A DNA stretch of 38,652 nucleotides, from contig JAQRMR010000026.1 of assembly GCA_028599115.1 (NCBI GenBank), forward strand, positions 1 through 38,652, read 5' to 3'. Positions 1,648 to 10,116 of the stretch are shown here, in pieces; the first letter of the stretch is position 1, and every line of letters starts with the position of its first letter. The notes beneath the pieces are model-generated. The model made no database searches and was not told where the DNA came from. It was given only the letters and a program-made list of their open reading frames with translations. Position numbers and translations under genes: made by a program. The stretch is from Methyloprofundus sp. Its GTDB lineage: Bacteria > Pseudomonadota > Gammaproteobacteria > Methylococcales > Methylomonadaceae.

Positions 1648-1701
1648 GGGCGCTGGCTTTAGCTTACATTGACTCCACCATAAGATTAAAGCCAGCGTCC
1701 C
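1648..1701. repeat. Long inverted repeat (hairpin) 5' of control-region copy B
   Basis: GGGCGCTGGCTTTAGCTTA (1648-1666) pairs with TAAGATTAAAGCCAGCGTCCC (1681-1701) over about 17 positions around a 14-base loop. The right arm includes the AAGCCAGC that begins the diverged direct repeat. There is no T-tract on either strand, so it is not an obvious terminator. It could be an end of a lost mobile element or a folded RNA. Confidence 0.45.
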
Positions 1702-1726
1702 AAAATCATTACACTGCCCCCATTCA

Positions 1727-1743
1727 TGCACCATTTTTGTACA
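1727..1743 (+). promoter_or_regulatory. NtrC-like enhancer site
   Basis: TGCACCATTTTTGTACA resembles the NtrC palindrome (TGCACC, five bases, GGTGCA). The left half is exact and the right half imperfect. It lies about 105-125 bases upstream of the start predicted from the sigma-54 promoter at 1824-1839, a normal distance for an NtrC enhancer. Only one such site was seen. Confidence 0.45.
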
Positions 1744-1823
1744 AAAAACTGTTATCTCTGCTAAAAATCATTTCAAAATAAAAAATATACTTATAAATCA
1801 AACAGATAAAAAACCTAGTCTTT

Positions 1824-1839
1824 TGGCACGTATACTGCT
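1824..1839 (+). promoter_or_regulatory. Sigma-54 promoter of the NasA-like/DmsBC operon
   Basis: TGGCACGTATACTGCT fits the -24/-12 consensus TGGCACG-N4-TTGCW except for one base, with GG (1825-1826) and GC (1837-1838) at the correct spacing. Transcription would start near 1850, giving a leader of about 160 bases before the ATG at 2012. Sigma-54 promoters need an enhancer-binding activator; the NtrC-like site upstream suggests nitrogen limitation as the signal. Confidence 0.7.
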
Positions 1840-1850
1840 TTAACCATAAC

Positions 1851-1943
1851 AACGCCTAGCGTTAATCCCAATTAGTTTTTATGCAGAACTAACGACAAGT
1901 ACTCATTAATCACTGCAAGCTGCACTTTGCAGTGATTATTTTT
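1851..1943 (+). terminator. Structured leader with intrinsic terminator (candidate attenuator)
   Basis: Three hairpins fall in the predicted leader. The first is AACGC/GCGTT (1851-1863). The second is TTAGTT/AACTAA (about 1873-1893). The third is a perfect 12-bp stem TAATCACTGCAA (1907-1918) with TTGCAGTGATTA (1927-1938) followed by TTTTT (1939-1943), a classical terminator. It sits 68 bases before the molybdoenzyme ATG and downstream of that operon's own promoter, so it could act as an attenuator. TGCAG (1882-1886) can pair with CTGCA (1912-1916) and would compete with the terminator stem. The alternative is a plain terminator for an upstream short RNA. Confidence 0.6.
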
Positions 1944-2011
1944 GTTAGCTCTTTAAATATTTCTGACATAAAAACGACTTAACACCATTCACTTCTATTT
2001 ATAAAAATATC

Positions 2012-9826: not shown

Positions 9827-9842
9827 AGCACAGGCCATGCCA
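9827..9842 (-). promoter_or_regulatory. Sigma-54 promoter of glnK-amtB
   Basis: On the minus strand, TGGCATGGCCTGTGCT (9842-9827) matches TGGCACG-N4-TTGCW at all but two scored bases, with GG and GC correctly spaced. Transcription would begin near 9816, leaving a leader of about 27 bases before the glnK ATG, which suits a nitrogen-regulated operon. Confidence 0.7.
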
Positions 9843-10080: not shown

Positions 10081-10108
10081 TTTAACTATACTATTAAGAC
10101 ACCTTACG

Positions 10109-10116
10109 GTGCACCA
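10109..10116. promoter_or_regulatory. GGTGCACC palindrome in the porin leader
   Basis: This 8-bp perfect palindrome made of NtrC-like half-site sequence lies about 17-24 bases downstream of the predicted porin transcription start. That position would favour repression or a translation effect rather than activation. It may be coincidental. Confidence 0.25.

Follow-up and report, generated by a model that had tools for sequence, protein, structure and literature searches.

To our knowledge, ANTAR-type proteins are the only known class of nas antiterminators. Small RNAs under NtrC/sigma-54 control, such as NrsZ, have a sigma-54 promoter that drives a short RNA with a terminator. ANTAR-type leaders are defined by two hexaloop hairpins with A at loop position 1 and G at loop position 4 (A1/G4), the second of which overlaps the terminator (PMC3369931, PMC8934654, PMC7496416). 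In the NasS-NasT systems of Azotobacter, Paracoccus and Bradyrhizobium, a nitrogen-controlled nas operon has a leader between its promoter and the nitrate reductase gene, and NasT of Paracoccus binds the nasA leader RNA (PMC3795266). The NasR/nasF system of Klebsiella oxytoca has small hairpins followed by a terminator ahead of its nitrate assimilation operon (PMC7496416).

The nasA locus analyzed here resembles both systems in layout (Table 1). Unlike the NasS-NasT systems, it has no dual hexaloops, and neither nasT nor an NrtA-like gene was found in its genome. NasR carries an ANTAR domain, whereas none is encoded here, and the small hairpins have a triloop and a UAUGC pentaloop in place of hexaloops. 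The locus lies in a window (the whole stretch of DNA analyzed, 38,652 nt) from a deep-sea, Methyloprofundus-like gammaproteobacterial methanotroph with a genome (G000) of 2.29 Mb that is 99.99% complete. The closest named nasA loci are those of Methyloprofundus isolates and of methanotrophic endosymbionts of Bathymodiolus, with ~90% protein identity. The NasA/NarB-like molybdoenzyme scores under the NCBIfam cut-offs for NasC and Fdh. The fusion protein encoded downstream of it matches no NCBIfam model at cut-off, and a conserved counterpart is present in some two dozen of 101 family genomes; its DmsB-like and DmsC-type parts suggest a quinol-linked "assimilatory" nitrate reductase. In cultured Methyloprofundus INp10, narB and nirBD have been named as the assimilatory enzymes, and in INp10 biofilms they were hardly involved at the transcript level (PMC8788690).

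Table 1. Features of the nasA promoter, leader and operon (positions within the window)
Feature	Position	Strand	Remark
NtrC-like site TGCACCATTTTTGTACA	1727..1743	+	One half-site good, the other poor
Sigma-54 -24/-12 promoter TGGCACGTATACTGCT	1824..1839	+	Conserved at nine nasA loci
Leader RNA through terminator	1850..1945	+	Putative start ~12 nt past the -12 GC
Hairpin H1, AACGC-CTA-GCGTT (triloop)	1851..1863	+	From fold
36-nt invariant block AGCGTTAATCCCAATTAGTTTTTATGCAGAACTAAC	1858..1893	+	Identical in G000, G110 and G020
Hairpin H2, UUAGUUUU-UAUGC-AGAACUAA (pentaloop, not ANTAR hexaloop)	1872..1892	+	From fold
Intrinsic terminator and T-tract	1907..1943	+	13 pairs (12 Watson-Crick and one GU)
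nasA/narB-like molybdopterin nitrate reductase, 733 aa	2012..4213	+	
Fused 4Fe-4S (DmsB-like) and DmsC-type membrane anchor, 635 aa	4268..6175	+	Shares the nasA operon

An earlier note on this DNA had proposed two-level control, by an NtrC/sigma-54 promoter and by antitermination in the leader. The near-consensus -24/-12 promoter that it described was recovered at 1824-1839 as the top sigma-54 match of the window, with one mismatch to TGGCACGNNNNTTGCW, and its -24 GG and -12 GC are kept in orthologues. A related sigma-54 pattern matched the genome 13 times, against 3 times for the pattern reversed as a control. Of these matches, only the one at nasA was seen on inspection to occupy an intergenic promoter position, and the remaining ones appear by eye to sit in coding sequence. 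Both rpoN and ntrC are encoded in the genome (ntrC at 714 bits against a cut-off of 559), which supports a promoter of the NtrC/sigma-54 type.

The NtrC-like palindrome is the weakest item of that note. TGCACCATTTTTGTACA is present, with two mismatches to TGCACC-N5-GGTGCA; such palindromes, allowing up to three mismatches, are at chance level (12 matches against 11.6 in shuffles), and the site gains support only from its GCACCA half-site, which is conserved in close relatives. Across 18 genomes of the genus, the tandem GCACCA-N14-GCACCA occurs 14 times, against once for a control pattern. Eight of these tandems lie upstream of sigma-54 elements, five at nasA and three at nirB (that of this genome included), and the remaining six lack a promoter of this sort ahead of a nitrogen gene. 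The nirB-nirD-phzF genes are on another contig (G000:C119; L169, L172), with a sigma-54 element and a tandem GCACCA and without a leader terminator; a phzF-like gene is directly upstream of nasA in several other genomes. Since a leader terminator is missing at nirB in this genome, the one at nasA is specific to that gene.

The terminator with its T-tract was confirmed ahead of the NasA-like ATG (2012). The hairpin at 1907-1938 has 12 Watson-Crick pairs and one G.U pair, a loop of 6 and the tail TTTTTG, and a terminator scan returned 3 sites against 0.5 expected. The leader of ~95 nt (1850-1945) folds at -23.9 kcal/mol (z -3.4, with 0 of 200 shuffles as good), and exactly two small hairpins precede the terminator in this fold, which bears out the two that had been described.

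The order of sigma-54 element, leader, strong hairpin and nasA was found at nine loci (the window, G110, G020, G107, G101, G103, G068, the Gigantopelta endosymbiont locus L140, and L010). The seven Methyloprofundus genomes among these, window included, and the Gigantopelta endosymbiont are placed together in one NasA-tree clade, and L010 in a different one. Inside the former clade, L117 and L119 have no leader and their nasA is preceded by a phzF-like gene. Most other lineages have a phzF-like or Rieske-like gene ahead of nasA and lack a leader of this kind, and Cocleimonas and Leucothrix relatives have a sigma-54 element near the nasA ATG and no terminator. The terminator stems of the eight clade loci are nearly unrelated in sequence and their pairing is kept: all 12 stem positions show several pair types, and the terminator z-scores run from -3.1 to -5.7. 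Conservation among orthologues, on which the earlier note had made its proposal depend, was thus found. The sole locus with a hairpin that lacks a T-tract is L113 (G020), which keeps the 36-nt block.

The block is the longest three-way identical run over 330 nt upstream and the whole of nasA in G000, G110 and G020. At fourfold-degenerate sites, the same three species are identical three-way in 95 of 281 cases (0.338). Because the block is identical in three species against 34% at fourfold sites, the leader probably has a function and is more than a relic. The 3' 22 nt of the block occur once per genome in these species, and one match with 3 mismatches, in G100, was the only further copy found in the genus. 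The whole block is limited to the three species, and the UAUGC element alone is kept in some others. L112 has a 13-nt insertion in the H1 loop that is predicted to extend H1 into a longer hairpin. A hairpin similar to H2 occurs in L116, where the UAUGC loop is retained and one stem pair differs. In the three close sequences H1 and H2 hardly vary. The identical block and the changes in L112 and L116 favour a working RNA element.

The leader was also compared with other kinds of regulatory RNA. Rfam covariance models, at gathering and relaxed thresholds, gave no credible match to it, the best score being that of 23S-methyl (19.6 bits against a cut-off of 50, E 0.68). Read by eye, the H2 loop contains an AUG that starts a three-codon ORF (M-Q-N-stop; 1881-1892, plus strand) in the window clade, and the H2-loop AUGs of L114, L116 and L118 open ORFs of 7-9 codons that reach into the terminator. 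A leader peptide was set aside: no Shine-Dalgarno sequence precedes the AUG, and the AUG is absent from three leaders. CsrA was dismissed because no GGA was seen by eye in the window leader.

The ANTAR domain (Pfam) has matches in 87 of 151 family genomes. It has no match in this genome or in the leader-bearing genus genomes G020, G068 (2 contigs), G107 and G110, and none was found in G159 or G163 either. The genome search for nasT or nasR that the earlier note had suggested therefore returned no ANTAR protein, and control by such a protein in the manner of Klebsiella and Azotobacter did not hold up. The earlier note had itself been unable to find paired ANTAR hexaloops, which we confirm, and its reservation that the antiterminator may differ from those described was right. 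The window leader has the intrinsic terminator of ANTAR-type leaders. A scan of it for A1/G4 hexaloops on a 3-bp stem was negative, so that it has no dual hexaloops, and H2 (1872-1892) does not overlap the terminator (from 1907); the same kind of scan was positive in G106, G101, G018 and L010.

The known system is nonetheless present in the family. NasT-type and NrtA-like genes occur together in only 2 of the 18 genus genomes, G101 and G106, and no NrtA-like gene was detected in the remaining genomes of the genus, this one included; G046 has a different ANTAR protein. The nrtA leaders of G106 (L180, 821-1170; GGTTC[ATTGTC]GAACC and CAGAC[AAAGGC]GTCTG) and G101 (L189) have textbook dual hexaloops. 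A third hexaloop hairpin (AACGTT or AACGGC) is seen further upstream in both. These leaders are like the nasA leaders in genus and in the order of sigma-54 element, leader and terminator, and differ in having dual hexaloops that overlap the terminator, in genomes with a NasT-type gene, whereas the nasA leaders lack hexaloops. L010 has a nasT-type gene immediately before nasA and a dual hexaloop with a weak first stem; a pair of this kind arises in 2.4% of shuffles. Since the NasT system is present in the family and neither ANTAR domain nor hexaloops are found here, this nasA locus lies outside that system.

The reading that we favour, at about an even chance, is an NtrC/sigma-54 operon with a NasT-independent attenuator in its leader. 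NtrC and sigma-54 would switch the operon on at initiation, as is strongly suggested by the promoter sequence. RNA polymerase would start near 1850 and make H1 and H2, many transcripts would end at ~1939-1945 at the attenuator, and nasA would be made by read-through only. Read-through would be the only route to nasA because a promoter search between terminator and ATG found nothing plausible (one weak site has its -10 abutting the ATG) and because merely 33-36 nt separate the terminator stem from the nasA ATG in two orthologues, L112 and L140. The conserved leader RNA (H1-H2 and the 36-nt block) would set the level of read-through via a non-ANTAR factor or ligand. More tentatively, we propose that this 36-nt leader with its two hairpins may be a new antitermination element, responsive to nitrogen or nitrate and read by some protein or small molecule, which replaces NasT in a part of the Methyloprofundus lineage. 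Refolded leader prefixes of the three close species gave no common antiterminator arrangement and no clear mutually exclusive antiterminator, and folding of the window leader allows H2 to coexist with the terminator. The operon would have a promoter-plus-attenuator design without the known class of nas antiterminator, in a genus where NasT-type leaders persist at nrtA. This makes it a natural case for comparing how, once its regulator is gone, an attenuator persists or passes to another control, set in symbionts whose nitrogen supply is unlike that of their free-living relatives.

A less probable explanation, which still deserves serious weight, is a fixed or vestigial attenuator that derives from a NasT-controlled ANTAR leader: after the loss of nasT the hexaloops would have decayed, and the retained terminator would now damp the sigma-54 promoter by letting a constant share of transcripts through. 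The rare co-occurrence of NasT-type and NrtA-like genes in the genus fits such a loss, and true ANTAR leaders are nearby (nrtA of G106 and G101, and nasA of L010 with its adjoining nasT). In addition, loops at the P2 position, aligned by eye, carry a U at position 1 although the G of position 4 is kept (L116 GAGC[UAAGGC]GCUU, L114 [UUAGGC], L118 [UUAGGU], L140 CAGAC[UAGGGC]), and in the EutV system induction is lowered when U replaces A1 of the second loop (PMC3369931). These remnants in four loci suggest that the nasA leader may have originated from an ANTAR leader. However, AGGCG may simply be the start of a GC-rich stem, and the placement of L010 in a different NasA clade weakens the case for descent. 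The G101 nasA leader lacks hexaloops despite the NasT-type gene of that genome, and the very strong selection on the 36-nt block in the clade of the window is unexpected for a relic.

It is unlikely that the region upstream of nasA is by chance a separate NtrC/sigma-54-driven sRNA gene, with an NrsZ-like product of ~90 nt that ends at the terminator. A sigma-54 promoter, a conserved 5' part and a strong terminator are the expected look of such a gene, but nasA has no apparent promoter of its own past the terminator, the gap in L112 and L140 is short, and the conserved element is found at nasA alone in every genome. The likeness to NrsZ-type sRNAs is one of layout, and here a promoterless gene follows. 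A short terminated RNA acting in trans could still arise as a by-product of the favoured attenuator.

The conserved block could also act at the DNA level, as it contains a perfect 6-bp inverted repeat (TTAGTT-N9-AACTAA). That it is an operator for a regulator bound past the sigma-54 start, with the terminator incidental, is in our judgment improbable. The repeat is perfect and the block is identical in three species, but L116 has a spacer of 7 nt instead of 9 together with a paired stem change, the 13-nt insertion of L112 falls between promoter and block and is predicted to lengthen H1 as RNA, and a terminator-type hairpin is conserved at the eight clade loci. Classical ANTAR (NasT/NasR) antitermination, although the promoter-and-terminator layout agrees with it and recurs in relatives that have nasT, is very hard to sustain when neither G000 nor the 100% complete G068 encodes an ANTAR domain and the leader is without an A1/G4 hexaloop on a 3-bp stem.

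Two other observations concern the window. A long inverted repeat (GGGCGCTGGCTTTA...TAAAGCCAGCGTCCC) without a T-tract is present at 1649-1701, between the upstream gene and the promoter, and the interval considered in the earlier note (from 1689) begins inside it. A glnK-amtB (P-II/ammonium transporter) operon, whose Amt is of the marine subtype (TIGR03644), has two elements on the minus strand, a sigma-54-like one (9827-9842) and, at 10098-10113, the NtrC-like site TGCACCGTAAGGTGTC.
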